A DNA stretch of 45,825 nt from an uncultured Pelagibacteraceae bacterium. Lineage in GTDB: Bacteria; Pseudomonadota; Alphaproteobacteria; Pelagibacterales; Pelagibacteraceae. The notes beneath the pieces were generated by a model that ran no database searches, was not told where the DNA came from, and worked only from the letters and a program-made list of their open reading frames with translations. Shown here piece by piece: positions 21,384-42,564 of this stretch. The stretch is taken from contig CACDEU010000006.1 of assembly GCA_902551895.1 (NCBI GenBank), positions 1 to 45,825 on the forward strand. Reading direction: 5' to 3'. A program made the translations under genes and the position numbers. Within the stretch, counting starts at the first letter, position 1; every line of letters starts with the position of its first letter.

Positions 21384-22553
21384 ATGCAAAAATATAATTG
21401 GAATTATCCAACAACAATGTGGGTTGGTGAAAATAGAATTAAAGACCTAGGCTCAGCCTGTAAAACTTTAAATATAAAGAAACCTTTGCTAGTAACAGAC
21501 AAAGGTCTTTCCCAATCTGATATTGTTAAGAATACTTTATCAAATTTAAAGAACGAGGGAATTGCTGTAGAATTATATTCTAATGTAGTTGGAAATCCCA
21601 CAGGAACAAATGTTAATGAAGGTGTAGAAAGTTATAAAAAAAATAATTGTGACGGTGTAATTGCCTTTGGTGGTGGAAGTGGATTAGATGTTGGAAAAGC
21701 AGTAGCATTTATGTCTGGTCAAACTTTACCTATATGGGATTTTGAGGATGTTGGAGATAATTGGACCAGAGCTAATTCGGATAAAATAGCTTCTATAATT
21801 GCTGTACCCACAACTGCTGGAACTGGTTCAGAAACAGGAAGAGCATCAGTTATTTTAAATGAAGATACAGGTGTAAAAAATATTATTTTTCATCCAAAGT
21901 TTTTACCATCAATTGTAATTCTGGATCCTGTTTTAACTGTTGGCTTACCATCAAAAATAACAGCTGCAACAGGCATGGATGCTTTAGCTCATAACCTAGA
22001 AGCTTATTGTGCCCCAAGCTATCATCCTATGGCTGATGGAATTGCGTTAGAAGGAATGAAATTAATTAATAAATGGTTACTTGAAGCAGTTAATAATGGA
22101 ACAAATATAGAAGCGAGAATGAATATGTTAACAGCGGCAAGTATGGGATCAACAGCTTTTCAAAAGGGATTGGGGGCAATACATTCATTAAGTCATCCAG
22201 TTAATGCGTTAAATAATGTTCATCATGGTTTATCAAATGCGATTTTTATGCCTTATGTTTTAACTTTTAATAAAGATGTAATTGAGGATAAAATTATTAA
22301 AGTTTGTGATTATTTGGAATTAAAGAATAAAACATTTGATGGATTTATTAGTTGGATTTTAGATTTGAGAAAAAAATTAGAAATTCCTCATAAACTATCA
22401 GAAGTGATTAAAGAAAAAGACTTACAATTAGATCGGCTATCAAAAATGGCTTTAGAAGACCCTTCAACTGGTGGTAATCCAAAAGAATTAACTGAAGCTG
22501 ATATGAAACTTATGTATCAACATAGTATGTCAGGTACACTTTTCAATGACTAA
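21384..22553 (+). CDS. Iron-containing alcohol dehydrogenase
   Basis: A 389-aa group III alcohol dehydrogenase. The nucleotide-binding FGGGSGLDVGKA (about residue 95), VPTTAGTGSE, and the metal site GMDALAHNLEAY with the histidines of AIHSLSHPVNALNNVHHG are visible. It would reduce or oxidise an alcohol/aldehyde with NAD(P). The start ATG lies 73 bases from the divergent aldehyde dehydrogenase start, so the two may share a control region. Its stop overlaps the amidotransferase start by eight bases, suggesting translational coupling with that gene. Substrate unknown. Confidence 0.9.
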   Translation: MQKYNWNYPTTMWVGENRIKDLGSACKTLNIKKPLLVTDKGLSQSDIVKNTLSNLKNEGIAVELYSNVVGNPTGTNVNEGVESYKKNNCDGVIAFGGGSGLDVGKAVAFMSGQTLPIWDFEDVGDNWTRANSDKIASIIAVPTTAGTGSETGRASVILNEDTGVKNIIFHPKFLPSIVILDPVLTVGLPSKITAATGMDALAHNLEAYCAPSYHPMADGIALEGMKLINKWLLEAVNNGTNIEARMNMLTAASMGSTAFQKGLGAIHSLSHPVNALNNVHHGLSNAIFMPYVLTFNKDVIEDKIIKVCDYLELKNKTFDGFISWILDLRKKLEIPHKLSEVIKEKDLQLDRLSKMALEDPSTGGNPKELTEADMKLMYQHSMSGTLFND

Positions 22554-23361
22554 TTTAAATATTCTCATAGTAGAGGGAAATGATCCTAAGAATAATGAAT
22601 TTTTTGTAAAAGCCGCAAAGGCATCTTGTTCAGAAAACTTAAAAAATTTAGTTTTAAAATTAGAACCAAGTTTAAAAATTAAAATTATTAATCCAGCAAA
22701 TGACAACGAAACAAAAGCTGTTTTGGGCAGTATTTCAAATTATCATGGCATCATTTTTACAGGTGGAGCTATGAGATTAAATGATATGACAGATGAAATT
22801 AAAAAACATTTAGATTTTGCATCTAATTGTTTTAAATATGAGAATAAAATTTTAGCAATTTGCTGGGGATTACAAGTTTGTTCTACAGTAGCAGGAGGAA
22901 AGGTTGCTCCAGGAAAAAATGGAGCACATATAGGCATAGCTTCAGATATTGAAATTAATGATGAAGGAAAAAAAAATCCCATATATAAAAATAAAAAATT
23001 AAAATTTACATCTCCTGCATTTAATTATGATGAAGTATGTAAAATCCCTGATGGCGCTACCTTATTATCTAGCGACAAAGTCAATAAAGTAATGGGATTA
23101 TATTTTAGATCAGGAAAATCTGAAATTTGGGGGTTACAATACCATCCAGATTACGAATATTGGCAGATGCTAAATTTGTCTAATGGCAGAAAAGATCGTA
23201 TATTGCAAAACAATCATTTTGATAATGAAACTGATTTTCAAAATCACTTAAATTATATTAAAGAAGAAGATAAGAAATTAGACTTTGAAAATAGAACATG
23301 TGAAATAAGAAATTGGCTTAACCAGCTAACTCTAGCAAAGAAAAAAGAATCTAATTATTAA
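22546..23361 (+). CDS. Class I glutamine amidotransferase-like protein
   Basis: A 271-aa protein of the GMP-synthase-type class I amidotransferase fold. The nucleophile cysteine is C106 in ILAICWGLQ and the catalytic histidine is H200 in LQYHPDYEY. The usual HPE is HPD here, an acidic replacement that should keep the triad. The C-terminal 60 residues are charged and helical. It overlaps the Fe-alcohol dehydrogenase by eight bases and lies 21 bases before gshA, so it may handle a gamma-glutamyl or glutamine-derived compound. No synthetase partner is fused to it. Exact reaction unknown. Confidence 0.8.
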   Translation: MTNLNILIVEGNDPKNNEFFVKAAKASCSENLKNLVLKLEPSLKIKIINPANDNETKAVLGSISNYHGIIFTGGAMRLNDMTDEIKKHLDFASNCFKYENKILAICWGLQVCSTVAGGKVAPGKNGAHIGIASDIEINDEGKKNPIYKNKKLKFTSPAFNYDEVCKIPDGATLLSSDKVNKVMGLYFRSGKSEIWGLQYHPDYEYWQMLNLSNGRKDRILQNNHFDNETDFQNHLNYIKEEDKKLDFENRTCEIRNWLNQLTLAKKKESNY

Positions 23362-23382
23362 AAGATTTAGTACAAAATTTTA

Positions 23383-24639
23383 ATGGAAATTACATCAAAA
23401 AATCAGATAATTGATTATTTTTCCTCTGGATGTAAAGCAGACTTATTAATAGGAGTAGAGAATGAAAAATTTCTATTTAGAGAAAAAGACCAGCAAAGAG
23501 TTAATTATTCAGACATAAAAAAAGTATTAAATTTATATTCAGAAAAATATAAATGGGAAAAAATATTTGAAAATGAAAATTTAATTGGCTTAAAGTTAGG
23601 TGGAAAATCAATTACTCTTGAACCTGGAAATCAAATCGAATTATCAGGCGATAAATATAAAAATATTCATGGAGTTTGTTCAGAGTCATATGATTTTCAA
23701 TCAAAACTTAACGAAATCTGCAAAAATTTAAAATTAAAAACTATTGCCGTAGGGCATGATCCTTACTCAAAATTAAGTGATGTGCCTAATAATCCAAAAC
23801 AAAGATATGAGATAATGACCAAAGAAATGCCAAAAAATGGAAAACAGAGTTTAAATATGATGTATCAAACATCAGGAACGCAAATAAATATCGATTACTC
23901 ATCAGAAGAGGATTTTAAAAAAAAATTTAAAGTAATTTCTTTCTTAATTCCAATCACTATCGGGGTTTTTGCCAATTCTGCAATTTCAGAGAATAAACCA
24001 AGTGGATACTTATCACTAAGATCTAAAGTTTGGCAAGGGACCGCAAGAGGAGGTTTACCAGAAATTTTTTTAGAGGATATGGATTTCGAAAAATATGCTG
24101 ATTTTGCAATCAACTTTCCACTTTTGTTTTTAAAAAAAAATAATTTATATACATCAGCTAATGGAAAAAAATTTAAAGATTTTATGGAAGGTAAAATTGA
24201 AAATACAAAAAATTTACCAAATTTAGATGATTTAGAATTACATCTCAGCACCATATTTACAGAAAATAGATTAAAAAAGTATATTGAGATTAGATCCTTA
24301 GATGCATGTGAATGGGATTGTCATTGTGCTGGACCAGCTTTTTTAATTGGATTAATCTATGGTAATTTAGAAAGTACAATTAGTATAATCAATAATTGGA
24401 AAAAAGAAGATGTCTTAAATGCTTACATAGAAGCGCCAAAAAAAGGATTAAATACAATTATAAATAATAAAAAAATTCTAGATTGGCTAAAGATTTTTTA
24501 TAACATCTCAAAAAATGGTTTAGAAAAAAGAAAAGAGTTAAATAAAACAAAAAGAGATGAAACAATTTTTTTGAATAATATTAAACAGATATTAGATGAC
24601 AAAAAAACTAAGGCTGATAAATCTTTAGAAAACGAATAA
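23383..24639 (+). CDS. gshA: Glutamate-cysteine ligase (alphaproteobacterial/plant type)
   Basis: A 418-aa GCS2-type ligase that joins glutamate and cysteine in the first step of glutathione synthesis, using ATP. Family features are IGVENEKFLFRE near the N-terminus, LEPGNQIELSG, MMYQTSGTQINIDYSSE, the ISENKPSGYLSLRSKVWQ region and the C-terminal YIEIRSLDACEWD. It is directly abutted by gshB (zero gap), completing the pathway. A cytoplasmic enzyme. Shorter than the E. coli GshA and of a different lineage, as expected for alphaproteobacteria. Gamma-glutamylation of another amine instead of cysteine cannot be fully excluded. Confidence 0.87.
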   Translation: MEITSKNQIIDYFSSGCKADLLIGVENEKFLFREKDQQRVNYSDIKKVLNLYSEKYKWEKIFENENLIGLKLGGKSITLEPGNQIELSGDKYKNIHGVCSESYDFQSKLNEICKNLKLKTIAVGHDPYSKLSDVPNNPKQRYEIMTKEMPKNGKQSLNMMYQTSGTQINIDYSSEEDFKKKFKVISFLIPITIGVFANSAISENKPSGYLSLRSKVWQGTARGGLPEIFLEDMDFEKYADFAINFPLLFLKKNNLYTSANGKKFKDFMEGKIENTKNLPNLDDLELHLSTIFTENRLKKYIEIRSLDACEWDCHCAGPAFLIGLIYGNLESTISIINNWKKEDVLNAYIEAPKKGLNTIINNKKILDWLKIFYNISKNGLEKRKELNKTKRDETIFLNNIKQILDDKKTKADKSLENE

Positions 24640-25569
24640 ATGAATAAAATTGTTGCAATACAAGCTGACTCTATTGAAAAAATAAATCCAAAAACAGATA
24701 CAACTTTATTGCTAGCTTTAGAAGCTCAAAAAAGAAAACATAAAATATATTGGTTTGAATCAAAAGATTTAAGCTTTATAAATTCAAAGTTATTTGCAGA
24801 TGTGAAAGAATTAAGATTGTTCAGTAATGACAAAAAATATTTTAAAATAATTAGGAAAAAAAAGTTTAATTTATCAAGTTCTAAAGTAATTTTAATTCGG
24901 CAAGATCCACCCTTCAATATAGATTATATTAATTCTACACTTTTACTAGATTCAATTAAAAACAGAACAAAAATTATTAATAATCCAGAATCAGTAAGAA
25001 ATATATCTGAAAAGTTGTTTTCAATTAAATTTATGCAATTGATGCCACCAACTATTTTTACAAAAAATTTAAATGAGATAATAAATTTTTATCAAAAACA
25101 TAAGAAAATAGTACTTAAACCCGTTAATGGATATGCAGGAAAAAATATTAATTTTATTAATAGAAAACTAAATCTGGGTGCATTAAGGAAATATTTAAAA
25201 AAAACAGGTTTTGTAATGGTTCAAAAATTTCTACCTTTAGTAAAATATGGAGATAAAAGGGTTTTTATTATTAATGGCAAAGTTGTCGGTGCTATCAAAA
25301 GAGTCCCATCTAAAAATTCGATTTTATCAAATATATCACAGGGTGGAAAAGCATTTAAAACAAATTTAAATAAATTTGAAAAAAAAGTTTCTGATCATGT
25401 AGCCAAAGTATTGAAAAAAAATAATATTTATTTTGCAGGAATTGATTTAATTTCTGGAAAATTAATCGGAGATATCAATGTAACATCTCCCACAGGTTTA
25501 ATTCAATTCAAACAATTGACTGGAATAAATCTGGCAGAATATTTTTGGGATAAGTTAAAATTAAAATAA
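24640..25569 (+). CDS. gshB: Glutathione synthase
   Basis: A 309-aa ATP-grasp ligase that adds glycine to gamma-glutamylcysteine. Motifs match prokaryotic Gsh[25 protein letters not shown], the ATP-lysine segment [29 protein letters not shown], a glycine-rich NISQGGKA and the Mg-site [11 protein letters not shown]. Length agrees with E. coli GshB. It begins the base after the gshA stop, a tight operon. Its last nine bases overlap the end of convergent fhs. Confidence 0.9.
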
Positions 25570-27243
25570 TCCTTCAATATTACCTTTATCATTTAACTTT
25601 ATAGAGTCAGCCGCAGGTATTCTTGGTAAACCAGGCATTGTCATGATAGCACCACAAATAACTACTATAAATTCTGCTCCTGACGATAATCTTACTTCTC
25701 TTATCGGAACTACGTGTCCAGAAGGGGCACCTTTTAAACTTGGATCAGTAGAAAAACTATATTGGGTTTTAGCAACACATATAGGAAGTTTTCCATAACC
25801 TTTTGCTTCAAAATCTTTTAATTGATCTCTTATTTTAGTATCAGCTACTACTTCGCTTGCATGATAAATTTCTTGTGCAATTGTTTCAATTTTTTTAAAT
25901 AAAGGAACGTCATCTTCATATAAAAATTTAAAATTATTTTTATTATTACATATATCTACTACAATATTTGCTAAATCTTTTGTTCCCTCACCACCATCTG
26001 ACCAATGTTTGCAAATAGATGATTTTACTCCTAGGGTTTTACAAAAATTCATAAGTGCTTCGACTTCTTTGTCTGTATCTGAGATGAAGTGATTAACTGC
26101 TACCGCAACTGGTAAACCAAATTTTCTAACGTTATTAATATGTCTTTCAAGATTTACTAAACCTTTATTTAAAGCATCAACATTTTCATTTTTCAAATCA
26201 TCTTTTGCTATTCCACCGTGCATTTTTAAAGCCCTTATGGTCGCAACAATTACTACACAATCAGGTTTTAAATTTGATTTTCTACATTTTATATCTATAA
26301 ATTTCTCAGCCCCTAAGTCAGCACCAAAACCAGCTTCAGTCACAACATAATCAGCTAATTTTAATCCTGTTTTTGTAGCAATTACAGAATTACAACCATG
26401 TGCAATATTTGCAAAAGGTCCTCCATGTATTATTGCTGGGTTGTTTTCTAATGTTTGTGTCACATTAGGTCTAATCGCATCTTTTAATAAAACAGTCATT
26501 GGGCCATGAGCATTTAAGTCTTTTGCATAAATTGGTTTTTTGTTTCTAGTGTAAGCTACAGTTATATTTCCAATCCTATTTTCTAAATCTTTTAAATCGT
26601 TTGACAAACAGAAGATGGCCATTATTTCAGAAGCTACCGTAATATCAAAGCCATCCTGTCTAGGATATCCATTGGCCACACCTCCAAGATCTACAACAAT
26701 TGATCTTAAAGAACGATCATTCATATCCATAACTCTTTTCCAAACAATTCTTCTGACATCAATATTTAATTTATTGCCCCAGTAGATATGATTATCTATT
26801 AAAGCAGAAAGAAGATTGTGAGCAGATGTTATTGCGTGAAAGTCCCCAGTAAAATGCAAATTTATTTGTTCCATAGGAATAACTTGTGCATAACCACCTC
26901 CAGCAGCACCACCTTTCATTCCAAAAGAAGGTCCTAGGCTAGGTTCTCGAAGGCAAACAATTGATTTTTTTCCAATTTTATTTAGACCATCATTTAAACC
27001 AACCGACGTTGTTGTTTTTCCTTCACCAGCAGGGGTTGGAGTTATTGCAGTAACTAAAATTAATTTTCCATCTTTTTTATTTTTTAAAGTGTTTAAGTAT
27101 TCAGTTTTAATTTTTGCGATATATCTTCCAATTGGACTATAAACTTCAGCTTTGTCGGGTACATTTAGTCTATTAAGCACTTCCTGAATGGGCTTCATTT
27201 TAGCTTCTCTAGCTATTTCAATATCAGTTTTTACTTTGCCCAT
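25561..27243 (-). CDS. fhs: Formate-tetrahydrofolate ligase
   Basis: A 560-aa enzyme that makes 10-formyl-THF from formate, THF and ATP, or runs in reverse to give formate and ATP from C1-THF. It has the P-loop [14 protein letters not shown] (about residue 69), [36 protein letters not shown] and the C-terminal [13 protein letters not shown]. Length is normal. It is divergent from the sarcosine oxidase operon, with 137 bases between starts, matching its role in handling the methylene-THF that oxidase produces. It overlaps gshB at the 3' end by nine bases. Confidence 0.95.
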
Positions 27244-27380
27244 TTTAGCTTTCTATATTTTATATATTCAAACTCATTTGAGCTGGATTAGTATCTTCTT
27301 TTATGGTTTTTTTAAAGTTCTAAAAAATATATATAAAAAAAATAAAGAACTATTTATACTAATTACGATAAAATTTGATT

Positions 27381-28637
27381 ATGCAAAAATATTCAGTCTT
27401 TAGCCTTATTAAAAATGCTTTTAAAGATCATAAAAAATGGGAAGTAGCCTGGAAAGACCCAACACCTAAATCTGAATATGATGTTATAATTATAGGAGGT
27501 GGAGGCCATGGTTTAGCTACAGCATATTACCTTGCTAAAGAACACAATATTACAAAAGTTGCTATTATTGAAAAAGGCTGGATAGGGGGAGGTAACGTTG
27601 GAAGAAACACCACTATAATTAGATCAAATTATATGCATGATGAAAATGGATTGTTTAGTGAGTTTGGTATGGACTTGTGGAGAAACATGAGTCAGGATTT
27701 AAATTTTAACGTAATGTTTTCTCCAAGAGGAATAATTAACCTTGCACATTCTGATGCACAAATGAATGTTTACTCTAGAAGAGGAAATTCAATGCGTTTA
27801 AATGGAATTGATGCAGTTTTGTTAAATAGAGAAGAAGTTAGAAAGATTATTCCTATGGCAGACTTTTCTGAAAATGTAAGATTTCCAATTTTTGGTGGAC
27901 TAATGCAACCAAGCGCAGGAACAGCAAGACATGACGCAGTTGCTTGGGGGTATGCACGTCAAGCAGATTCGATGGGAGTAGATATTATTCAAAATTGTGA
28001 AGTTACAGGGTTTGATGTTTCTAATGGAAAAATTTTAGGAATAAGAACTTCAAAAGGAGCTATTAAAGCAAAAAAAATTGGTCTTTGCGTTGCCGGAAGT
28101 ACAAATATTTTAGCAGAGAAATTAAATATGACGTTGCCAATAGAAACACATCTTTTACAGGCATGTGTTTCGGAACCAATTAAACCAATCTTAGACAATG
28201 TTGTTACATTTGGAGCTGGACACTTTTATTGTAGTCAATCTGATAAAGGTGAAATGGTTATGGGTGGAGATCTTGATGGGTACAACAGTTATGCTCAAAG
28301 AGGAAATCTTCCAACATTGCAACATGTATTAACTGAAGGAATAGCGATGTTTCCGTTTCTAAGTAAATTAAAGATGCTTAGAACTTGGGGAGGAATTATG
28401 GATATGTCTATGGATGGATCACCTATTATTGATAAGACACATATTGATGGATTATATTTAAATTGTGGATGGTGTTATGGAGGATTTAAAGCAACTCCTG
28501 CATCTGGATGGACTTTTGCTCATACAATTGCTCAAGACAGACCACACGAACTAAATGCAGGTTATAGTTTAAATAGATTTAGTACAGGACATTTAATTGA
28601 CGAAAAAGGTCTTGGAACTAAAACTTGGATTTCTTAA
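27381..28637 (+). CDS. soxB: Sarcosine oxidase beta subunit
   Basis: A 418-aa flavoprotein subunit of heterotetrameric sarcosine oxidase, which demethylates sarcosine to glycine with transfer of the carbon to THF and release of hydrogen peroxide. The ATG at 27381 is preferred; a TTG two codons upstream is open but weak. The FAD-binding IIGGGGHGLATAYYLA is near residue 36, and the histidine in GTARHDAVAWG corresponds to the residue that carries covalent FMN. RNTTIIRSNYMHDENG and CGWCYGGFKATPASGW are also typical. First gene of a four-gene operon soxBDAG with gaps of 0 to 2 bases or short overlaps. Confidence 0.92.
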   Translation: MQKYSVFSLIKNAFKDHKKWEVAWKDPTPKSEYDVIIIGGGGHGLATAYYLAKEHNITKVAIIEKGWIGGGNVGRNTTIIRSNYMHDENGLFSEFGMDLWRNMSQDLNFNVMFSPRGIINLAHSDAQMNVYSRRGNSMRLNGIDAVLLNREEVRKIIPMADFSENVRFPIFGGLMQPSAGTARHDAVAWGYARQADSMGVDIIQNCEVTGFDVSNGKILGIRTSKGAIKAKKIGLCVAGSTNILAEKLNMTLPIETHLLQACVSEPIKPILDNVVTFGAGHFYCSQSDKGEMVMGGDLDGYNSYAQRGNLPTLQHVLTEGIAMFPFLSKLKMLRTWGGIMDMSMDGSPIIDKTHIDGLYLNCGWCYGGFKATPASGWTFAHTIAQDRPHELNAGYSLNRFSTGHLIDEKGLGTKTWIS

Positions 28638-28904
28638 ATGTTACATATTAAATGCCCTCATTGTGGATTACGATCTCAAAATGAATTTTCATATGGTGGT
28701 GATGCAGCAGTTAAAAGACCAGAATTAAATAAAGAAGTTTCGGATCAAGATTGGGACAATTTTGTTTACTTACGCAAAAGTCCGGCAGGAAAACATCTAG
28801 AATTATGGCAACATATTTCTGGATGTAGACAATGGATTAAAGTCGAAAGAGATACATTAACCCACGAAATATTTAAAACATTAAAGGCAAGCGAAGAAGC
28901 ATAA
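28638..28904 (+). CDS. soxD: Sarcosine oxidase delta subunit
   Basis: An 88-aa subunit with the zinc-binding residues expected from the known structure of the complex: C6 and C9 in KCPHCGLR, and H59 and C63 in QHISGCRQW. It caps the alpha subunit in the heterotetramer. It begins the base after the soxB stop and ends two bases before soxA. The conserved RPE and KVERDT segments are present. Small size and position between soxB and soxA leave little doubt. Confidence 0.93.
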   Translation: MLHIKCPHCGLRSQNEFSYGGDAAVKRPELNKEVSDQDWDNFVYLRKSPAGKHLELWQHISGCRQWIKVERDTLTHEIFKTLKASEEA

Positions 28905-28906
28905 AG

Positions 28907-31903
28907 ATGTCAGAAAAATTTAGATTAAATAAAGGTGGATTAATCAATAGAAATAAAAAAATTTCATTTAAGTTTAATGGTAAAAAGTATTTTGGTTATG
29001 AGGGTGATACTTTGGCTTCAGCTTTGATTGCAAATGGAGTTCATTTAGTTGGTAGAAGTTTTAAATATCATAGGCCCAGAGGTTTTTTTGGAGCAGGTGT
29101 AGATGAACCCTATGCAATAGTTCAAATGAATAGAAATAATGAAGTTGATCCCAATGTAAGAGCAACGGAACAAGAGTTATTCGAGGGTTTAGAGGCAAAA
29201 AGTGTAAATTGTTGGCCAAATGTAGATTTTGATATTGGTGCAATAAATAATTTTTTAGGCAAATTTTTTCCTGCAGGTTTTTACTATAAAACTTTTATGT
29301 GGCCTAAAAGCTTCTGGTATAAGGTATACGAGCCAATTATTAGAAAAGCAGCAGGTTTTGGAGCAGCTTCAATAAAGCATGATAAAGAAAAATATGAACA
29401 TAAATACGAATATTGTGATCTGTTAATTACAGGATCTGGTCCATCCGGTTTAGCAAGCGCCTACGCTGCAGCAAAAAATGGAGCAAAAATAATTTTAGCT
29501 GAAGACAAATCGAGATTTGGTGGAAGCCTTTTAACCAGCGAAGTTACAATTGGGAATCAAAGTGGACAAGAATGGGCAGAAAAAATTATTTCTGAACTTA
29601 AATCAATGTCAAATGTAGTAATCAAAAATAGATCTCAGGTTTTTGGCTATTACGACCATAACATGCTTGTTATGTCTGAAAGAATTAGCGATCATTTACC
29701 TAAATCAGAAAAATATATTCCTAAACAAAGACTTTGGTACATCCGTGCAAAAGAAGTTATTATTTCGTCTGGATCAATAGAAAGACCTTTGGTTTTTGGA
29801 AATAATGACACCCCAGGCGTTATGCTTTCGTCAGCAGCCAAAGAGTACTTAAAAATTTATGGAGTAATAGTTGGAAAAAAACCATTAGTATTTACAAATA
29901 ATGATAGCGGATATGAAACTGCTATAGAATTCAAAAAAAATGGAATTGATCCAATCGTTTTAGATACAAGAAAAGATCCAAATTCAGAAATTATAAAAGA
30001 GGCTAAAGACCTAAATATTAATATAAAGACTTCTTATGTTGTTGTAACAGCCAAAGGTTATAAAAAAGTTAATTCTGCTGATATTGCAAAAATATCAGAT
30101 GATAAGAAAAATATAAGTAACATTGAAAATATAAAATGTGATTGTATTTGCGTCTCAGGATTTTGGACACCAACAATTCATTTAGCCTCACAATCAGGTA
30201 ATAAAACAAAGTTCAATGAAGAAATAGATGCATTTATTCCAAGTCAATCTAAACAAAAAGAAACAACTCTTGGATCAGCTAACGGGACTTTTACATTAGA
30301 AGAAACATTAAAAACTTCGTTTGATAAAGGAAATGAATTATCGAAACAAATAACAAATAAAGAAAATAAAGTTTCTGTTCCTACTGTTGTAGAAAAAAAA
30401 TCTTCTAATCATGATAAATTTTGGTGTGTACCATTACCAAAAGGTAAAAATTATAAAAGATTTCTAGATTTTCAAAATGATGTTGCGGTATCCGATATAC
30501 AACTTGCATTAAGAGAAGGTTATAGATCAATCGAACATGTAAAAAGATATACAACTTTAGGAATGGCTACTGACCAAGGCAGGACAAGTAATCTTAATGG
30601 ATTACAATTAGTCTCAGATATAGAAAACAAAGTTGTACCTCAAGTTGGTCATACTACTTTTAGACCACCTTATTCACCTGTTACAATAGGAGCTATTGTT
30701 GGAAGAGAAATTGGAAAACATTCAAAACCAACAAGAAAATCACCAATGCACTTTTGGCATGAGAAAAATAATGCTGTTTTTGTTGATGCAGGCGTTTGGT
30801 TGCGTCCAAGATATTATAAACAAGGAAATGAAAACTTATTTGAAGCATCAAAAAGAGAAGCGAAAAACGTTAGACAAAACGTAGGTGTTTGCGATGTAAC
30901 AACTTTAGGTAAAATTGACATCAAAGGACCTGATGCTGCTGAATTATTAAACAGAGTTTACACTAATGCTTGGCTCAAGTTACCTGTTGGTAAAGCAAGA
31001 TATGGAGTAATGCTAAGAGAAGATGGAATTGTAATGGACGATGGAACAACTACAAGAATTTCAGAAAACCATTATCATATGACAACCACTACTGCTCAAG
31101 CTGCAAACGTTTTATCTCATCTAGAATATTATTTGCAATTAGTGTGGCCTGAGTTGAATGTGAATGTAGTTTCTAGTACTGAACAATGGGCTGGTGCTGC
31201 AATAGCTGGACCAAAGTCAAGAGATGTTTTGCAAAAATTATTTCCGGATTTAGATGTTTCAAATGAAGGTTTACCATTTATGGGTTATATGGAAGGTAAT
31301 TTATTTGGAGTTAATGCAAAAATTTTCAGAATTTCTTTCTCTGGTGAACTTGCTTATGAGGTTAATGTTGAGTCTGATAACGGAAATTTTATGTGGGAAA
31401 AAATAATAGAAATTGGAAATGAATTTAATATCCAACCATATGGTACTGAGGCATTATCAACATTAAGAATTGAAATGGGACACGTTGCAGGATCAGAATT
31501 GGATGGACGTACAATTCCATATGATAATTCTTTAGAAGGGTTAGTTAGCAAAAAGAAAGACTTTATTGGAAAAAGATCCTTATCTAAAACAGCATACATT
31601 GCACCAGATAGGCAAAAAATAGTTGGTGTTGTTCCTTTAGATAAAAAAACAAGTATACCGGAAGGTTCATATATAGTTAAAGACGCTAAAGCAAAACTTC
31701 CAAATCCTAAATTAGGTCACGTATCCGCATCATGCTGGAGTGTTGAATATGACAATCCTTTTTCACTTGCAATAATAAAAGATGGAAAAAATATGATAGG
31801 ACAAAAACTTTTTGCACTATCCCCATTAAAAAATAAAACAATACCTGTTGAAATTGTATCATCACATTATGTTGATCCAAAAGGAGAAAGGGTTAGATCA
31901 TGA
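28907..31903 (+). CDS. soxA: Sarcosine oxidase alpha subunit
   Basis: A 998-aa multidomain subunit. Residues about 20-105 form a ferredoxin-like Fer2_4 domain (DTLASALIANGVHLVGRSFK, YHRPRGFFGAGVDEP), residues about 165-560 an NAD-binding Rossmann region (LLITGSGPSGLASAYAAAKN), and residues about 600-998 a GcvT-type folate-binding half with MDDGTTTRIS, FSGELAYEVNV and LSTLRIEMGHVAG. The folate half accepts the carbon released from sarcosine, giving 5,10-methylene-THF. Length is normal. The related N-methylglutamate dehydrogenase MgdC has the same layout, but no gmaS or mgsABC genes are near, so sarcosine is the better substrate. Confidence 0.93.
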   Translation: MSEKFRLNKGGLINRNKKISFKFNGKKYFGYEGDTLASALIANGVHLVGRSFKYHRPRGFFGAGVDEPYAIVQMNRNNEVDPNVRATEQELFEGLEAKSVNCWPNVDFDIGAINNFLGKFFPAGFYYKTFMWPKSFWYKVYEPIIRKAAGFGAASIKHDKEKYEHKYEYCDLLITGSGPSGLASAYAAAKNGAKIILAEDKSRFGGSLLTSEVTIGNQSGQEWAEKIISELKSMSNVVIKNRSQVFGYYDHNMLVMSERISDHLPKSEKYIPKQRLWYIRAKEVIISSGSIERPLVFGNNDTPGVMLSSAAKEYLKIYGVIVGKKPLVFTNNDSGYETAIEFKKNGIDPIVLDTRKDPNSEIIKEAKDLNINIKTSYVVVTAKGYKKVNSADIAKISDDKKNISNIENIKCDCICVSGFWTPTIHLASQSGNKTKFNEEIDAFIPSQSKQKETTLGSANGTFTLEETLKTSFDKGNELSKQITNKENKVSVPTVVEKKSSNHDKFWCVPLPKGKNYKRFLDFQNDVAVSDIQLALREGYRSIEHVKRYTTLGMATDQGRTSNLNGLQLVSDIENKVVPQVGHTTFRPPYSPVTIGAIVGREIGKHSKPTRKSPMHFWHEKNNAVFVDAGVWLRPRYYKQGNENLFEASKREAKNVRQNVGVCDVTTLGKIDIKGPDAAELLNRVYTNAWLKLPVGKARYGVMLREDGIVMDDGTTTRISENHYHMTTTTAQAANVLSHLEYYLQLVWPELNVNVVSSTEQWAGAAIAGPKSRDVLQKLFPDLDVSNEGLPFMGYMEGNLFGVNAKIFRISFSGELAYEVNVESDNGNFMWEKIIEIGNEFNIQPYGTEALSTLRIEMGHVAGSELDGRTIPYDNSLEGLVSKKKDFIGKRSLSKTAYIAPDRQKIVGVVPLDKKTSIPEGSYIVKDAKAKLPNPKLGHVSASCWSVEYDNPFSLAIIKDGKNMIGQKLFALSPLKNKTIPVEIVSSHYVDPKGERVRS

Positions 31904-32487
31904 CATCAGTTTCTGCCTTAAATTATATTCATAAAATAGGACTCTTCGGAAACCATGAGAATAAAAATGTAGAAAATTTATTAAAAGTTTCAGAAATTAA
32001 AAACATGCTTGTTGTTCAAATAGTTCAATATAAAAGTTCTTCAGTTTCATTTGAGAGTATTGACATCGATGGTTTAAAATTAAAAAATGAACCACTAAGT
32101 GTAGTTAGCAATAAAGATACAAGAATTCTGTGGAACGGCCCAAAAAATTGGCTTTTAGTATCAACTAAAAAAGTTTTACTTAAAAATATTTTAGAAGCTC
32201 TAAAAGAATCAGATTTTGCTGTTACAGATTTATCTCACTCGAGGGCAATAATCGAAGTAGAAGGACGTGAGGTAAGAGAAGTTTTAAAAAAAGGATGTCC
32301 ATATAATTTCAATATTTTAGGGAAAAATAATTCAATAAACTCAATATATAATGGTATAGCTTTTACAGTTGATATGATCGAAGATAACCCAGATAAAATA
32401 AGACTATTTGTATTGAGAAGCTTTGGAGAGTCTTTTTATCATTCAATAACAGACTCCTCATTGGAATTTGGATACAAAGCAATTTAA
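31900..32487 (+). CDS. soxG: Sarcosine oxidase gamma subunit
   Basis: A 195-aa protein overlapping the soxA stop by four bases (ATGA). It resembles a truncated GcvT domain, as SoxG does: ILWNGPKNWLLVS, the conserved TDLSHSRAIIEVEG and the CPYNF segment. It completes the heterotetramer. A hairpin with a T-rich tail at 32504 follows, closing the operon. Confidence 0.9.
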   Translation: MTSVSALNYIHKIGLFGNHENKNVENLLKVSEIKNMLVVQIVQYKSSSVSFESIDIDGLKLKNEPLSVVSNKDTRILWNGPKNWLLVSTKKVLLKNILEALKESDFAVTDLSHSRAIIEVEGREVREVLKKGCPYNFNILGKNNSINSIYNGIAFTVDMIEDNPDKIRLFVLRSFGESFYHSITDSSLEFGYKAI

Positions 32488-36103: not shown

Positions 36104-36472
36104 ATGAAAATATTGGCTTTTTTTATACTGTTAATTTCCACAAGTACTTTTGCTGGTGAGTATGAGACAAATTTTAACATCGAAAAATTTAAATCCGCTC
36201 AAAATAATGGAAAAATAGTTGTCATTCACTCTTGGAATAAATCTTGCAGCACATGTGCAAAGCAGAAACCAATACTTGAAAAAGCAAAAAAAGACTTTGA
36301 AAACGTTATTTTTATGAATTTTGAACAAACTAAAAATAAAGATATTGCGGAACTATTAAAGATTGATTATTGGACAACTATTGTTGTTTATAAGGATAAC
36401 AAAGAATTAGCTCGCGAGATAGGATTGTATAATGAAAGGGATATATATAATCTTATAAAAAAAAGCATCTAA
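36104..36472 (+). CDS. Exported thioredoxin-like protein
   Basis: A 122-aa protein with a signal peptide (MKILAFFILLISTSTFAG) followed by a thioredoxin fold with the redox motif CSTC (C48, C51) in HSWNKSCSTCAKQKP. A proline-containing cis loop is not obvious: the segment KIDYWTTIVVYKDNKE has threonine where proline is usual. That departs from standard thioredoxins and may affect activity. The start at 36104 gives the cleaner signal; an in-frame ATG at 36086 adds six residues. It lies 15 bases before the M19-like gene and so heads a six-gene operon of unknown role. A periplasmic location is inferred. Confidence 0.72.
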   Translation: MKILAFFILLISTSTFAGEYETNFNIEKFKSAQNNGKIVVIHSWNKSCSTCAKQKPILEKAKKDFENVIFMNFEQTKNKDIAELLKIDYWTTIVVYKDNKELAREIGLYNERDIYNLIKKSI

Positions 36473-36487
36473 TCTTAAAATTAAAAA

Positions 36488-37453
36488 ATGAATTATAAAA
36501 TCGATAATTTACAATATTGTAATTGGTCTAGAGAAATATTTAAAATTAATAGAGAAGCAGAATTAGACGCCGTTCATGTTACAATAGTTTATCACGAAGA
36601 TTACGATGAATTAATTAAAAGAGTAGATGAATGGAATACACATTTTAAAGATAATTCTGATCTAATTTTTCTTGGCAAAAGTTACAAAGATATAGAAAAA
36701 GCAAAAGAACAAAAAAAAACAGCAATATTTTTTGGTTTTCAAAACTGCTCACCAATTGAAGATGATATAAATTTAATTGAAAAAGTATATCAGCTAGGAT
36801 GTAAATTTATGCAGCTTACTTATAATAATCAATCTCTATTAGCCACAGGTTGTTATGAAAAAATTGATAGTGGGGTTACTAATTTTGGAAAAGAAGTAAT
36901 TAAAGAAATGAATAGAGTAGGTATAGTAGTTGATATGTCTCATTCTGCTGAAAAAAGTACTTTCGATGCAATAGATATAAGTGAAAAACCAATCGCAATA
37001 ACTCATGCAAACCCTTCATTTTGGCATAATGCAATCAGAAATAAATCTAATGATTTATTAAAAACTTTAGCTCAAAGCGGAGGTATGATTGGGCTTTCGT
37101 TGTATCCCCATCATCTTAAAGATGGAACAAATTGTAATTTAGAAGACTTTTGTGAAATGACAGCAAAAACTGCTGAATTGATAGGAGTTAAAAGTATAGG
37201 TATTGGATCAGATTTATGTTTAAAACAACCAGACACAGTTGTTGAATGGATGAGAAATGGTACTTGGACAAAAGCAAAAAATTATGGAGAAGGATCAAAA
37301 AGTAAACCTGGTTTTCCTAAACAACCTGTTTGGTTTGAAGATGCAAGAGGATTTAAAAATTTGGAAAGTGGATTAAAAAAAACTGGATTTAATCAAGCAG
37401 AAGTGGAAGGAATTTTAGGAAATAATTGGTACAATTTTTATAAAAATATTTAA
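36488..37453 (+). CDS. Atypical M19 (membrane dipeptidase) family protein lacking some metal ligands
   Basis: A 321-aa protein with the M19 renal-dipeptidase fold: LGCKFMQLTYNNQSLLATGC, the second-metal histidine in VVDMSHSAEKST, the histidine in ITHANPSFWHNAIRNKSN and the aspartate in IGIGSDL are in family order. The first-metal motif, normally DGHxD near the N-terminus, reads IDNLQYC here, and the bridging glutamate of the EGG motif is Q in FGFQNCS. So the usual two-zinc site is incomplete and the protein may bind one metal, act on another substrate, or be non-catalytic. There is no signal peptide. It starts 15 bases after the thioredoxin-like gene and is one base from the 552-aa gene, so it belongs to that operon. 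Confidence 0.75.
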   Translation: MNYKIDNLQYCNWSREIFKINREAELDAVHVTIVYHEDYDELIKRVDEWNTHFKDNSDLIFLGKSYKDIEKAKEQKKTAIFFGFQNCSPIEDDINLIEKVYQLGCKFMQLTYNNQSLLATGCYEKIDSGVTNFGKEVIKEMNRVGIVVDMSHSAEKSTFDAIDISEKPIAITHANPSFWHNAIRNKSNDLLKTLAQSGGMIGLSLYPHHLKDGTNCNLEDFCEMTAKTAELIGVKSIGIGSDLCLKQPDTVVEWMRNGTWTKAKNYGEGSKSKPGFPKQPVWFEDARGFKNLESGLKKTGFNQAEVEGILGNNWYNFYKNI

Positions 37454-37454
37454 A

Positions 37455-39113
37455 ATGCAAGTAGAATTAAGAGATCCAAAAATTATTATGAAATTATCAA
37501 GACTTGGGTCTTTCCATCAATCAAAATTATCTTTTTTAAGATCATTTTTAAAAGAATTTAAAGATTGGGAATATAATAGAAATCTATTTGATTTAGATGA
37601 AAATGGATATGGAAGAGCAGTTTATTCATTTTCAAAAAAAAATAGAACTTATTCATTAGTTTGTTTTGCAAACAAAATAAGTGATGAAGAAAGATCTGAT
37701 AGAGTAATAGCTACAAAATGGGATGCGGCATTTGTATTACACGACGGGATTCCTTCAAAAAAAGATATTGAAAGACTAGAGTCTAACGTTCCAAAACAAG
37801 AAGTGGGCAGGCTTTCCTATAAAGAATTAACTCTTTCGAGAGCGAATAAATCAGTTAGAGCTTTTGAACATGTTGTGGAAAGTCTTTCAAATGGCAAACA
37901 ACCCGATAAGGAGTTTTTATCAAAAGTAGGCTATTTATATAGAACAACAGCTGTTTATGGATCAGGTAAATTTGGACTAGCAGACAGATTCAGAATTAAA
38001 AATAGAGAAGAAATTTGTGGACCTTTCAGATTGGAGATGATGTTAGTTTATTTAGTTAGACAATTTACTTTTGATCAAGTCAACCATATAGCAAATCACA
38101 GAAACCCTAAAAATTATGTTAAATTAGATAAAGAAATTTCTAGAAATTTGGGAATTGGAAATTCTACAGGACTTGGAATGGCTCCTTTTATCGTAAATCA
38201 CCCAACGCTTTTAAATAACTGGATTCTTGCTAGAGAGAAAGCTTTAAAAAAAGTTCGAGAGGTAAAAAATGTTAAAAAAGAAGATTTCGATATTTTTGTT
38301 AAATGTTTAAAAAAATCTTTAAAAAATATAACTTCCTGGAATACAGATAGCGAATTTCAAAAAAATAAAATAAAACAATTAATAACAGACCTAAATAAAT
38401 TGTTAGTTTATATTGATAATTTTAGTTTCCATGAAGAGTTTGGTTTTAACAAACTCTATATGTGGGTAGAGGAAAATCTAGATCTAGAATGTTCTGAGTA
38501 TATTGTTTCTATGATGTTGGAACCATATGATTCTATTGTTAATCCTCTAATATATCAAATGAGCTCTGAAGAAGAAAAATTTTTTAACATACCAGGAGAT
38601 AGAACTGTATTAGATTTAAGAAATATATTAGAGGAAAAATATTCTGATATTTTAAAAATTGATTTTAGCAAAAAGGCAAGTAATGAAAATTTTTGGTTTA
38701 TTTCAAAAAATAAAGAGGAACCAAGACTAGCAAATAGATATAATGAAAAAGGATCAGATTTAGAACAACCATTAGCTATAGCAAGAGATATAAAAAAATT
38801 ATATGAAAGAATATCAAACCAAAAAAATAGTTTAAATATTGGTAGATTTTTAATAGAAAATAATGACCTTAGACATGTTGTTAGAAGAGCATTTATATCA
38901 GAAAAATTTCCTTATTCAGAGATACAAGATAATACCATCGGATCTAATTTAATGCCTATAGACATGTTAAGACTAAAGTTATCATTTTTTGGTGCAGTTA
39001 AATTTGATCCAAAATCAGATAAATGGTTAAGGATATCTATGTTTCAAGGAGCACCATTGCCTGATGAATTAAAAAAATTTAATGATTACTGGGTTTATAA
39101 TTCTTTAAACTAA
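37455..39113 (+). CDS. Conserved-looking protein of unknown function, 552 aa
   Basis: I do not recognise a family. The protein is soluble-looking, with no signal peptide or membrane helix, and rich in charged helical segments in the middle (residues about 260-320). Motif-like stretches that look constrained are YLYRTTAVYGSGKFGLADR, GNSTGLGMAPFIVNHP and, near the C-terminus, RLKLSFFGAVKFDPKSDKW. Codon use matches the neighbours. It begins one base after the M19-like stop and its own stop overlaps the next start (TAATG), so it is translated as part of one operon. A partner of the M19-like protein is a reasonable but unproven idea. Confidence 0.7.
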   Translation: MQVELRDPKIIMKLSRLGSFHQSKLSFLRSFLKEFKDWEYNRNLFDLDENGYGRAVYSFSKKNRTYSLVCFANKISDEERSDRVIATKWDAAFVLHDGIPSKKDIERLESNVPKQEVGRLSYKELTLSRANKSVRAFEHVVESLSNGKQPDKEFLSKVGYLYRTTAVYGSGKFGLADRFRIKNREEICGPFRLEMMLVYLVRQFTFDQVNHIANHRNPKNYVKLDKEISRNLGIGNSTGLGMAPFIVNHPTLLNNWILAREKALKKVREVKNVKKEDFDIFVKCLKKSLKNITSWNTDSEFQKNKIKQLITDLNKLLVYIDNFSFHEEFGFNKLYMWVEENLDLECSEYIVSMMLEPYDSIVNPLIYQMSSEEEKFFNIPGDRTVLDLRNILEEKYSDILKIDFSKKASNENFWFISKNKEEPRLANRYNEKGSDLEQPLAIARDIKKLYERISNQKNSLNIGRFLIENNDLRHVVRRAFISEKFPYSEIQDNTIGSNLMPIDMLRLKLSFFGAVKFDPKSDKWLRISMFQGAPLPDELKKFNDYWVYNSLN

Positions 39114-39727
39114 TGAAAACTTTAAGCGAAATAGACACAACTTCAAAAAGAGCAACCAAAGGAGCTGGTTTCCCATGGGGTGTTGCAGAAGAAGTAGGTA
39201 AAAATATGAGATTGTTAGAATTATTTGGCCTACCAGGTGTAAAAAATTTAAACCAATATTTAAAGGATTATAAACAAGAAAAACAATTTCAGAAAATTAC
39301 ATTAATTTCTGAAACAAATAATGCGAACAAATATCCTTTTTGTCCAATTATATTAGGAACTAACTTTATTGATCAGGTTAATTTATTAGACAAAAAAGCT
39401 AACATTCATATATCAAATGTAGCATTTCCAATATTATTTTTACCATTTGCGAGCAGAGCATCTGAGATAATAGGTAAAAGAATTTTTTTAAAAATTGATG
39501 AAAAAGAATTTTTATTAAATCTAAATCAATCAATTTATTCAAATTACTTAAAAAATGAAATTTTGGAAAGTTGTAATATTATAGATATTAGTTTTATAGA
39601 AAATAATAACTCATTTAAGGAAAATGAATGGAATGAGCTATACAAGCTCTCGGAAGATACTTTTGTTGAAGAAACAGAGTCATTAAAAATTGGAGCTGCT
39701 GGCGCAGGATTAACTGATAATGATTGA
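39113..39727 (+). CDS. DUF3726-type protein
   Basis: A 204-aa protein whose N-terminus (LSEIDTTSKRATKGAGFPWG followed by VAEEVGKNMRLLE) and C-terminus (KIGAAGAGLTDND) match my memory of the DUF3726 family; function of the family is unknown to me. The start overlaps the stop of the 552-aa gene by one base, and its own last eight bases overlap the small CxxC gene. No signal peptide or membrane helix. The middle third is AT-rich and variable-looking. The strong conservation of both ends suggests binding or catalytic residues there. Confidence 0.62.
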   Translation: MKTLSEIDTTSKRATKGAGFPWGVAEEVGKNMRLLELFGLPGVKNLNQYLKDYKQEKQFQKITLISETNNANKYPFCPIILGTNFIDQVNLLDKKANIHISNVAFPILFLPFASRASEIIGKRIFLKIDEKEFLLNLNQSIYSNYLKNEILESCNIIDISFIENNNSFKENEWNELYKLSEDTFVEETESLKIGAAGAGLTDND

Positions 39728-39881
39728 ATATATTGATAAAAATAAATTACCTAAAAAAGAATTAGACGATATTTGTGAAGAATGTAAAAAAAATGATAAA
39801 AGTGTTACAGAGAATTTAATTCTTACAGGATATAAACTTTGTAGTTCTTGCAGAACATCTAAAACTTTGTTTCCAATTTAA
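39720..39881 (+). CDS. Small double-CxxC (zinc-ribbon-like) protein, 53 aa
   Basis: A short ORF starting ATG at 39720, overlapping the DUF3726-type stop by eight bases (ATGATTGA). The peptide carries two CxxC pairs, C19/C22 (DICEECKK) and C41/C44 (KLCSSCRT), the layout of a small zinc ribbon. It ends six bases before the exporter gene, filling a gap that would otherwise be empty. Overlap, spacing and the paired cysteines together support it as a real gene. Function is unknown; metal or protein binding is likely. Confidence 0.68.
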   Translation: MIEYIDKNKLPKKELDDICEECKKNDKSVTENLILTGYKLCSSCRTSKTLFPI

Positions 39882-39887
39882 TAAAAA

Positions 39888-40619
39888 GTGGAATTTTATA
39901 ACGAAATATTAGTTTTAATAGTCCTAATTATTTTTCAATCAGTATTTGGAGTTGGGCTTCTATTGTTTGGAACTCCAACATTTTTATATTTTGACTATTC
40001 ATTTTCTGAAACTTTAAGTTTATTACTACCTCTTTCTTTTACTATAAGTTTAATTCAATATTTAAGCTCTAAGGAAAAAGATAATAATTTTAGATATAAA
40101 TTTAATGTTTTTACTTTACCAGTTTTGGTTATAAGTCAAATTATTATCCTTAATTATCAAGATATAATTAATTTTAAAGTTTTTATTTCTATAATGTTAA
40201 TTGTGTTATCAATTATAAGCTTTGACAAAAAAAAATTTACTATTCTCAAATTAAAGAACCAATATAAAAATATTTTTTTAATCTTTCTAGGACTTATTCA
40301 TGGTTTAACAAATTTAGGTGGTGGATTTTTAGCCTTATATGCAAATATAAATGTAAAAAAAAATAAAAACCTTATAAGATATTATATATCATACGGTTAT
40401 CTTGTTATGGTTTCTGTTCAACTAATGATTTTACTTTCTCTTTATAATGATGAATTTGATTATAATAATTTATATTATATACCATTAATTTTTATTTTTT
40501 ATTTTCCTATGCAATTCATTTACAAAAAAATAAAAATAGATAATTTTTCATCAATAATTAAAATTGTTGCTATTTTATACGGATTTATAGCCTTAATAAA
40601 TTCAGTTAGCTTTAACTAA
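39888..40619 (+). CDS. TauE/SafE-type membrane transporter
   Basis: A 243-aa polytopic membrane protein with about seven to eight hydrophobic helices, starting with GTG six bases after the CxxC gene. The N-terminal FQSVFGVGLLLFGTPTFLYF and the second-half GLIHGLTNLGGGFLALYANI are the two related motifs of the TSUP (TauE/SafE) family, which moves sulfite, sulfonates or organic anions. It is the last gene of the 36.1-40.6 kb operon and may export a product or by-product of it. Its 3' end overlaps the convergent Yip1-like gene by eight bases. Confidence 0.8.
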   Translation: MEFYNEILVLIVLIIFQSVFGVGLLLFGTPTFLYFDYSFSETLSLLLPLSFTISLIQYLSSKEKDNNFRYKFNVFTLPVLVISQIIILNYQDIINFKVFISIMLIVLSIISFDKKKFTILKLKNQYKNIFLIFLGLIHGLTNLGGGFLALYANINVKKNKNLIRYYISYGYLVMVSVQLMILLSLYNDEFDYNNLYYIPLIFIFYFPMQFIYKKIKIDNFSSIIKIVAILYGFIALINSVSFN

Positions 40620-41205: not shown

Positions 41206-42564
41206 TTAACCTTTAACTACTTCTCTAGTATTTGCGTGAAAAGATTCTTTAAAAGGTATATCAACTACAACTGCATCAACTGGTGTTCCCGCAGTTTCTG
41301 AATATTTAGCAGGTAAATGAACTTTATATTTAGTTCCAACCTTACCTTTTGGAAAACCATTAGCATTCAGAGTTCCATCAAAAGGAACATATCCCATTGC
41401 AATATTTTGTTTTTTTTCTGGATGATACCAAGGTGATGTAATGAATCCTACCGGATCTCCACCATCGGCATTTGAAATTAACCAAAAATCTGGCGCATAT
41501 TCTTCAATAGGTTTACCTCCTAATTCAAGACCAACTAATTGAAGCTTATAAGGTTTTTTTCCTGCTTTAATTTCTGCACCCATTTTTTCTAAAGCTGCTT
41601 TACCCACATAATCTGTTTTCTTATTCCACTCACCTTTTCCCGATAATGAAACTTGATAACCAAGATTACACTGAAAAGGATTATGTTGTTGATCCATGTC
41701 TTGCCCCCATGAAAGAATACCTGCTTGTATTCTTCTATGGTGAGCTGGAGCAATAACCATTAAATTATGTTTTTTTCCAGCATCAAGAACAGCATTCCAC
41801 ATATCGTCAGCGTACAATGTTGCATTTCTTAAATATATTTCATATCCAGCTTCTCCTGAGAAACCAGACTGTGAAATTACACAACTTCTTCCTGCAACTT
41901 TAACTTCAGCTAGACCATAGAAAGGCATGTTGTCTAGATCAACTTGATCTCCAAGTAAATCTTTCATTAAAGCTTTTGATTTAGGACCTTGAATTTGTAC
42001 TGGGCAAGCGTCAATTTCTTCAACTGTACAATCAAATTTTCCATCATGATTAACACCTTGAAGATACATTCCAATATCAGAGTCTGATAATGAAAACCAA
42101 AATTCATCTTTTGAGATTCTAAGAAGAATTGGATCATTTAAAACTCCACCATAAGAATTACATAAAATTACATATCTAGCTCTCATTGGAGATATTTTTG
42201 TAGCGTCTCTAGTTATCACATAGTCAGTAAATTTCTCTGCATCTGGACCTTTAACTCTAATTTGTCTTTCAACAGCAACATTCCACATTGTTACATGATT
42301 AACAATTGCATCATACTCTACCATCGCTCCACCATCTTCTGGTTTTACATATCCCCTTGGATGATAAATTCGATTATAAACAGTTGCTCTCCAACAACCA
42401 GCTTGCATTGATAAATGCCAGTATGGTGATTTTCTCACTCTTGTTGAAATTAACATTTCAACTTTGGTAGGACCACTTTGTCTTAAGTTATATGGAACTT
42501 CTCGATCAGATTGATCAACTGAAGTTACATGTTTTAGTTTTGTATAGTCAAATTCATTAGACAT
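41206..42564 (-). CDS. DmdA-like, GcvT-family THF methyltransferase
   Basis: A 452-aa folate-dependent enzyme of the GcvT superfamily. It carries GGVLNDPILL, which matches DMSP demethylase (GGILNDP) rather than the catalytic DD of true aminomethyltransferase, plus VAVERQIRVKGPDA, SDSDIGMYLQG and SQSGFSGEAGYEIY. It is about 80 residues longer than the Pelagibacter DmdA I remember, with extra N-terminal residues, so it is probably a sister group with its own substrate. The likely reaction is methyl transfer from a sulfonium or quaternary amine to THF. It overlaps the MetF-like gene by eight bases and shares an operon with a betaine-type transporter; bhmT is divergent. Substrate not established. 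Confidence 0.75.
   Translation of the reverse strand: MSNEFDYTKLKHVTSVDQSDREVPYNLRQSGPTKVEMLISTRVRKSPYWHLSMQAGCWRATVYNRIYHPRGYVKPEDGGAMVEYDAIVNHVTMWNVAVERQIRVKGPDAEKFTDYVITRDATKISPMRARYVILCNSYGGVLNDPILLRISKDEFWFSLSDSDIGMYLQGVNHDGKFDCTVEEIDACPVQIQGPKSKALMKDLLGDQVDLDNMPFYGLAEVKVAGRSCVISQSGFSGEAGYEIYLRNATLYADDMWNAVLDAGKKHNLMVIAPAHHRRIQAGILSWGQDMDQQHNPFQCNLGYQVSLSGKGEWNKKTDYVGKAALEKMGAEIKAGKKPYKLQLVGLELGGKPIEEYAPDFWLISNADGGDPVGFITSPWYHPEKKQNIAMGYVPFDGTLNANGFPKGKVGTKYKVHLPAKYSETAGTPVDAVVVDIPFKESFHANTREVVKG

Follow-up and report, generated by a model that had tools for sequence, protein, structure and literature searches.

The window analysed here (the whole stretch of 45,825 nucleotides, positions 1 to 45,825 of contig CACDEU010000006.1, assembly GCA_902551895.1, from an uncultured Pelagibacteraceae bacterium of the SAR11 group) contains, between positions 36104 and 40619, a row of six closely spaced genes, and we wondered whether these genes serve one process and, if so, on which compound they act. 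A preliminary description drawn from the sequence had read them as one undescribed system that modifies or breaks down a small sulfur- or peptide-containing compound. Breakdown of a small compound is still the best reading, with a smaller gene set and another kind of substrate: the genes for an M19-like amidohydrolase, a 552-residue protein (U552) and a DUF3726 protein quite probably form a core that catabolises an N-methylated compound of betaine type. On balance we favour homarine (N-methylpicolinate), degraded through N-methylglutamate to glutamate, as this metabolite; for the form of the operon found in the window, the homarine assignment is weaker than the general betaine claim.

The list of open reading frames agreed with the earlier account of six tightly coupled genes, all on the + strand and separated by 15, 1, -1, -8 and 6 bases. 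Pfam bore out the labels thioredoxin, M19, DUF3726 and, marginally, TauE (33.7 bits against the TauE/SafE family cut-off of 32.6), and placed the 552-residue protein in no family. The six genes are as follows.

36086 (or 36104)-36472, + strand: thioredoxin-like protein (Pfam PF00085, E 1.2e-10), outside the conserved unit
36488-37453, + strand: M19-like amidohydrolase of 321 residues (Pfam PF01244 Peptidase_M19, E 7e-72), conserved core
37455-39113, + strand: U552, a protein of 552 residues and candidate main catalyst (no Pfam family), conserved core
39113-39727, + strand: DUF3726 protein of 204 residues (Pfam PF12525, E 2.5e-20, 72.6 bits), conserved core
39720-39881, + strand: CxxC...CxxC (zinc-ribbon-like) protein of 53 residues, core in SAR11
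39888 (GTG start)-40619, + strand: TauE/SafE-type membrane protein (Pfam PF01925, E 3.7e-8), outside the conserved unit

An alignment of 14 U552 sequences was compared with one genome per species, and the best 80 of at least 576 confirmed relatives were taken as SAR11 loci; all 80 are titled Pelagibacteraceae, Pelagibacterales or Pelagibacter, and gene presence was scored by BLAST against the window. The M19-like gene was present in 80/80 of these loci, always within 5 bases of U552, and DUF3726 in 77/80, at most 10 bases away in 74 of the 77, while the other three loci end before DUF3726. The CxxC protein was found in 73 of the 77 DUF3726-holding loci (71 by BLAST and two by eye), and both CxxC pairs were kept in 71/71 aligned proteins. 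The thioredoxin-like gene occurred in three of the 80 loci (L054-L056, with the closest U552 among the matches listed; 78 of the 80 extend at least 500 bases upstream of M19), and a TauE-type gene occurred at the window's position in none, the single TauE match being a weak one (24%) elsewhere in locus L064. Because counts of 80, 80, 77 and 73 for M19, U552, DUF3726 and CxxC stand against 3/80 and 0/80, the conserved SAR11 unit is one of four genes, to which the thioredoxin-like and TauE-type genes are local additions and neighbours only. The single process that the preliminary description had read from the tight spacing thus holds for the core and not for these two genes. Of the 69 SAR11 loci that have both the CxxC gene and the gene after it, 68 show a 4-base overlap of the two, which leaves no space for a TauE-type gene there; the latter was probably inserted as one gene, with the CxxC gene on one side and a convergent membrane-protein gene on the other. 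Locus L054, the nearest relative among the matches listed (U552 93% identical), has the 4-base overlap instead of a TauE-type gene. U552 was matched in at least 45 of 147 SAR11-family genomes, the window's included, which is a lower bound since many of these genomes are incomplete. The core gene set is therefore a real unit, conserved well beyond the window's genome, and many further bacteria of sea and soil have it too.

Recurrence of the neighbourhood in genera outside SAR11 had been set beforehand as a test of a functional unit, and 47 of the 100 genera covered in a Rhodobacterales family (see below) indeed carry U552. It was also present in 22/299 genomes of the phylum, the window's own included, and in 168 plasmid records; phage records gave no match, and a viral link was rejected, as none of 29 pattern matches in viral contigs was confirmed. 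We then considered 31 loci outside SAR11, 20 from genomes (of 24 non-window places in the phylum scan) and 11 from plasmids picked for variety; these loci are partly dependent, since three genomes give two each, two loci are from Phaeobacter inhibens and a few are the source of query proteins. Homologues of the 552-residue and DUF3726 genes were not scattered without M19, which lay near U552 in 29/31 loci (in two on the other strand), and DUF3726 was detectable in 26/31. An aldehyde dehydrogenase (ALDH) gene of at least 60% identity was present in 19/31, a BCCT betaine-type transporter (at least 50%) in 15/31, an Ldh_2 reductase gene (at least 40%) in 10/31 and MgdC (above 80%) in 3/31, and a LysR regulator gene was frequent beside U552. 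By annotation, the set LysR, ALDH, M19, U552 and DUF3726, with BCCT within it or after it, is carried by plasmids of Phaeobacter, Sulfitobacter, Aliiroseovarius and Alisedimentitalea; one Phaeobacter copy as well as Mesorhizobium and Aminobacter have the set but lack BCCT, and in Pseudomonas it is rearranged. On an archaeal plasmid, from Natrinema, U552 is accompanied by a BCCT transporter and a counterpart of DUF3726; M19 gave no match there. A filtered pattern scan of 30 of the non-SAR11 loci for the CxxC protein gave one match only, unrelated-looking, and the megaplasmid of Ruegeria pomeroyi gave no U552 match, an empty result that is weak by itself as it covers the megaplasmid only. A distant U552 branch (L051, L053 and L044; Sinorhizobium, Alloyangia and another genome), about 24-30% identical to the window's protein, keeps the M19 neighbour with other partners and possibly acts on another substrate.

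The family test drew one genome from each of 100 genera of the Rhodobacterales family to which genome G183 belongs. The tool's tally of 48 U552 genera was reduced to 47 by removing a 43-residue match (G568). An ALDH orthologue (at least 64% identity; a 47% match in G522 was removed) was present in 23/100 genera, never more than 6 kb from U552, and it was absent from all U552-free genera (Fisher p 6e-10, ignoring phylogeny). The operon thus exists in two forms, with a dedicated ALDH (23 genera) and without one (24 genera), and by content the SAR11 operon is of the second. The models nearest to this ALDH were those for 2,5-dioxovalerate and alpha-ketoglutarate-semialdehyde dehydrogenase; at 478 bits it stayed under their cut-offs. 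Such a likeness to enzymes of five-carbon semialdehydes would be expected if, with homarine as the substrate, ring carbon C6 left as a formyl group on the nitrogen.

The link to N-methylglutamate dehydrogenase (Mgd) came from the same genera and from individual operons. An MgdC-type alpha subunit was present in 44/47 U552 genera and in 32/53 of the others (p 1e-4, again ignoring phylogeny), at a threshold of E up to 1e-270 that does not strictly split the clades, and its frequency was about equal in ALDH-holding (22/23) and ALDH-free (22/24) U552 genera. Its gene lay within 10 kb of U552 in three of the 47 genera (G115, G548 and G560), where by a rough estimate about 0.2 would be expected. In Phaeobacter P92 and Aliiroseovarius, an operon annotated as heterotetrameric 'sarcosine oxidase' adjoins the LysR-ALDH-M19-U552-DUF3726 operon, and in a tree of 20 rows the alpha subunits of these adjacent operons grouped with four Mgd references with a support of 100/100. 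The Mgd references owe their label to glutamate-synthase-type (mgs) and glnT neighbours, and three sarcosine oxidase references, which fell apart from the Mgd clade, owe theirs to serine-catabolism neighbours. Outside SAR11 the core is therefore coupled to genes of the Mgd clade. Mgd has lately been reported as part of homarine catabolism, according to the excerpt of PMC13390433 that cites a 2026 Nature Microbiology report.

We next asked what the proteins themselves suggest. The M19-like protein clearly belongs to its family (PF01244, 242.7 bits against a cut-off of 26), and the solved structure closest by sequence, the 'amidohydrolase' 2i5g (E 3e-58), has the same altered motifs. The metal ligands of renal dipeptidase we take to be an HxD pair, a bridging Glu and two His. 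The altered ligands of the preliminary description were found throughout: Gln85 occupies the alignment position of Glu125 in renal dipeptidase, there is no HxD pair, and the complete two-metal site is lacking in 30/30 aligned M19-like sequences, the window's included, in all of which Gln85, His152, His173 and Asp242 are invariant. The two proteins thus share the family, His152, His173, Asp242 and also Arg184, which is kept in 30/30 and aligns with Arg230 of renal dipeptidase, presumably a carboxylate-binding residue. Judged by these residues, the M19-like protein has half a metal site and is probably not a dipeptidase.

For DUF3726, an AlphaFold2 model was confident (predicted local distance difference test, pLDDT, of 89.5) and its predicted fold was that of the Ldh_2 family, the type 2 malate/lactate dehydrogenases that include delta1-piperideine-2-carboxylate reductase. 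Ldh_2-type enzymes took ranks 1-23 in Foldseek, though none with E < 0.001, and ranks 1-15 in VIA with Z 8.9-11.1, the next entry having 4.1. The Natrinema counterpart matched PF02615 with E 4.8e-9 and 36.2 bits, below the curated 38.8, and direct hhalign of DUF3726 against Ldh_2 was weak (probability 35%). Compared with Ldh_2, DUF3726 has about 200 residues rather than 330, lacks part of the chain and has a conserved C-terminal tail added (GAGLTDND in the window; GAG..DND in most aligned members, not all), which is disordered in the model. Where full-length Ldh neighbours have GI[AR]SHG, DUF3726 has GLPG or similar; the Ser-His-Gly motif, which we take to be that of the Ldh_2 active site, is absent. 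DUF3726 thus looks like a shortened Ldh_2 fold, and as a subunit it may have a structural or regulatory role, because the Ser-His motif is absent and the tail is disordered in the model.

Structure prediction, which gave DUF3726 a fold, gave U552 none. Up to E 1, Pfam gave nothing for U552, and its single NCBIfam match was insignificant (E 0.017). As a profile against solved structures U552 had eight weak matches, the best of which (E 0.0067) was a designed three-helix bundle; the U552 model had no fold match (Foldseek best E 0.4, VIA best Z 3.3). This model, built from 48 SAR11 sequences only, was middling (pLDDT 75; predicted template modelling score 0.81), and several of the most-conserved motifs were its least confident parts, so that it demonstrates no new fold. 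U552 and DUF3726 are fused in one protein in Mesorhizobium sp. 131-2-1, which suggests that the two act as one enzyme.

Taken as a pathway, a betaine transporter of BCCT or Opu type would take up homarine, and its ring would be dearomatised and opened by U552 with DUF3726 as a trimmed Ldh_2-type subunit, a full-length Ldh_2 reductase perhaps assisting in some species. A one-metal M19-like enzyme would then hydrolyse the N-acyl (N-formyl) amide beside the carboxylate, the dedicated ALDH would oxidise the five-carbon semialdehyde, and MgdABCD would demethylate N-methylglutamate. The window would hold a reduced SAR11 form, consisting of the core and the zinc-ribbon-like protein; no linked regulator, aldehyde dehydrogenase or BCCT transporter was seen in its operon. 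Ferrer-Gonzalez et al. are said to have described in 2026 (reportedly in Nat Microbiol 11:1531) a homABCDR operon with N-methylglutamate and glutamate as intermediates and SAR11 among the carriers. The operon studied here shares with the homarine pathway the Mgd link outside SAR11, and its four structural genes plus LysR would match an ABCD+R layout; the SAR11 form differs by having no linked ALDH and regulator and by its added zinc-ribbon-like protein. The gene set probably belongs to this just-described pathway as a variant. The undescribed system of the preliminary description is accordingly doubtful, as the form found outside SAR11 agrees with the 2026 homarine pathway, and what stands of that claim is that U552 and DUF3726 are uncharacterised. 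A literature search found no mention of DUF3726, and among literature on homarine and on dipeptidase/BCCT no title or abstract start named these genes.

Several observations weigh against homarine as the substrate. That the published operon and this one are the same is an inference, and ring opening has no visible signature in the sequences. Mgd is also used for methylamine, as an excerpt of PMC13390433 states, and adjacency of an mgdABCD operon is rare: in 44 of the 47 genera no MgdC-type gene lies as near as 10 kb. Nine SAR11 alpha subunits of sarcosine-oxidase type, five of the type near the operon (window and G376) and four of a second type, were all outside the Mgd clade in the 20-row tree, in which some rows are composition-biased; in SAR11 the role of Mgd could be filled by other enzymes. 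Outside SAR11, 24/47 U552 genera have no dedicated ALDH. Among 31 genomes of the SAR11 genus (only five of them at least 90% complete) there was no close ALDH, the best near full-length match having 36% identity and the best partial one 40% over 345 residues; in the complete, U552-carrying SAR11 genome G376 the best match had 34%. Either a general ALDH serves in SAR11 or the substrate differs, and since the SAR11 genomes sampled yielded neither an ALDH orthologue nor a Mgd-clade member, the SAR11 substrate is less certain than that outside SAR11. Three ALDH-free loci adjoin genes for MttB (L034), DAO-GcvT (L037) and OpuAC (L035), and in ALDH-free loci the core may act on other betaines.

Two candidates within the window were rejected. 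The ALDH at 19934-21310 is only 26-28% identical to the dedicated enzyme and is not the missing dehydrogenase, and the sarcosine oxidase genes, at first suspected to be Mgd, found no support for this in the 20-row tree (a first, smaller tree had flagged long branches). Several SAR11 genomes have two separate heterotetrameric sarcosine-oxidase-type operons (27375-32487 in the window; L190, L191, L193, L195 and L197), neither in the Mgd clade.

The alternative that survives best, a possible one to which we give clearly less weight than to homarine, is that the ALDH-free form, that of SAR11 included, acts with the same core chemistry on a different N-methylated betaine (for example a glycine-betaine-, proline-betaine- or trigonelline-like compound) and feeds nearby sarcosine-oxidase-type genes rather than Mgd. 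The ALDH-free genera, the three neighbourhoods just named and the position of the SAR11 alpha subunits all speak for it, as does genome G183, which carries one copy of each form. However, in a U552 tree of 36 rows the ALDH-linked and ALDH-free forms were mixed, with SAR11 U552 among alphaproteobacterial members that include ALDH-linked ones, so that gene loss or a general ALDH explains the pattern equally well. In L034 (4912-7276) and L037 (11037-13473) the core follows genes of the phosphoenolpyruvate-mutase and MttB families (Pfam checked in L034 only), which suggests a methyl-transfer route for another quaternary amine.

It is improbable that the core handles dimethylsulfoniopropionate or another sulfonium compound. 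DmdA is present in 70/80 SAR11 loci, a dmdA-type operon adjoins one Phaeobacter copy and dmdD lies about 15 kb from another, but in both the window and Phaeobacter DSM 17395 DmdA is encoded on the opposite strand. Moreover, the core occurs without DmdA in six SAR11 loci whose downstream sequence extends for about 10 kb (L062, L064, L067, L069, L071 and L106), and the stretches seen from Mesorhizobium, Sulfitobacter, Pseudomonas, Aminobacter, Aliiroseovarius and Alisedimentitalea carry no annotated dmd gene. Very unlikely, to the same degree, are a six-gene sulfur or peptide system with a TauE exporter and a thioredoxin redox partner, which has the tight spacing in the window's genome in its favour and against it the 3/80 and 0/80 counts and the absence of tblastn matches (E 1e-4) for either gene in the 31 non-SAR11 loci, and a peptide-salvage system made up of a true M19 dipeptidase and accessory proteins, for which the strong Pfam match speaks and against which stand metal-ligand changes common to 30/30 sequences and an aldehyde dehydrogenase and a betaine-type transporter as recurring partners. 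The sulfur- or peptide-containing substrate of the preliminary description is left unsupported, because it was based on the TauE-type and thioredoxin-like genes, which are not conserved, and on the dipeptidase label of a protein with half a metal site.

Returning to the homarine-type operon, we can tentatively entertain a bolder idea, which we consider rather doubtful: that U552 and DUF3726 would form a previously undescribed two-subunit enzyme of unrecognised fold which opens an N-methylated pyridinium ring, or else breaks a betaine in an equivalent way, the C-terminal tail of the repurposed Ldh_2 partner reaching into the U552 active site and the SAR11 version being stripped down with a zinc-ribbon subunit. 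Homarine is among the phytoplankton osmolytes of high concentration and Ruegeria pomeroyi draws it down fast (both in the excerpt of PMC12817926), and SAR11 bacteria are among the most abundant of the surface ocean (excerpt of PMC13390433). If the homarine assignment is true, ocean-cycling models would gain a flux of nitrogen and carbon from homarine-type breakdown in at least 45/147 SAR11-family genomes. Two families of no known function (U552 and DUF3726) also gain a testable role, and an origin of DUF3726 from a dehydrogenase fold is suggested.

Some further observations concern the surroundings. In a plasmid stretch of Azospirillum argentinense (L202, 4444-10581) a gene annotated as dipeptidase comes directly after a sarcosine-oxidase-type operon; nothing U552-like is annotated there, and this dipeptidase-sarcosine oxidase pairing may recur elsewhere. 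In the window, genes that we take to be purE/purK-like lie upstream of the six on the opposite strand, and what are presumably DmdA-like, MTHFR-like and Opu-type transporter genes lie downstream, also on the opposite strand, as does a gene for a 181-residue membrane protein with no Pfam match up to E 1e-5. The window is, between 3932 and 45312, abundant in genes for methylated compounds (some of the labels presumptive), with a TMM-like monooxygenase (14622-15962), a GcvT-fused protein (3932-6271), two Opu systems, soxBDAG (27375-32487), formate-tetrahydrofolate ligase (25561-27243) and DmdA (41206-42564). Consecutive genes for glutamine-amidotransferase-like, glutamate-cysteine-ligase-like and glutathione-synthase proteins (NCBIfam) were found at 22546-25569.

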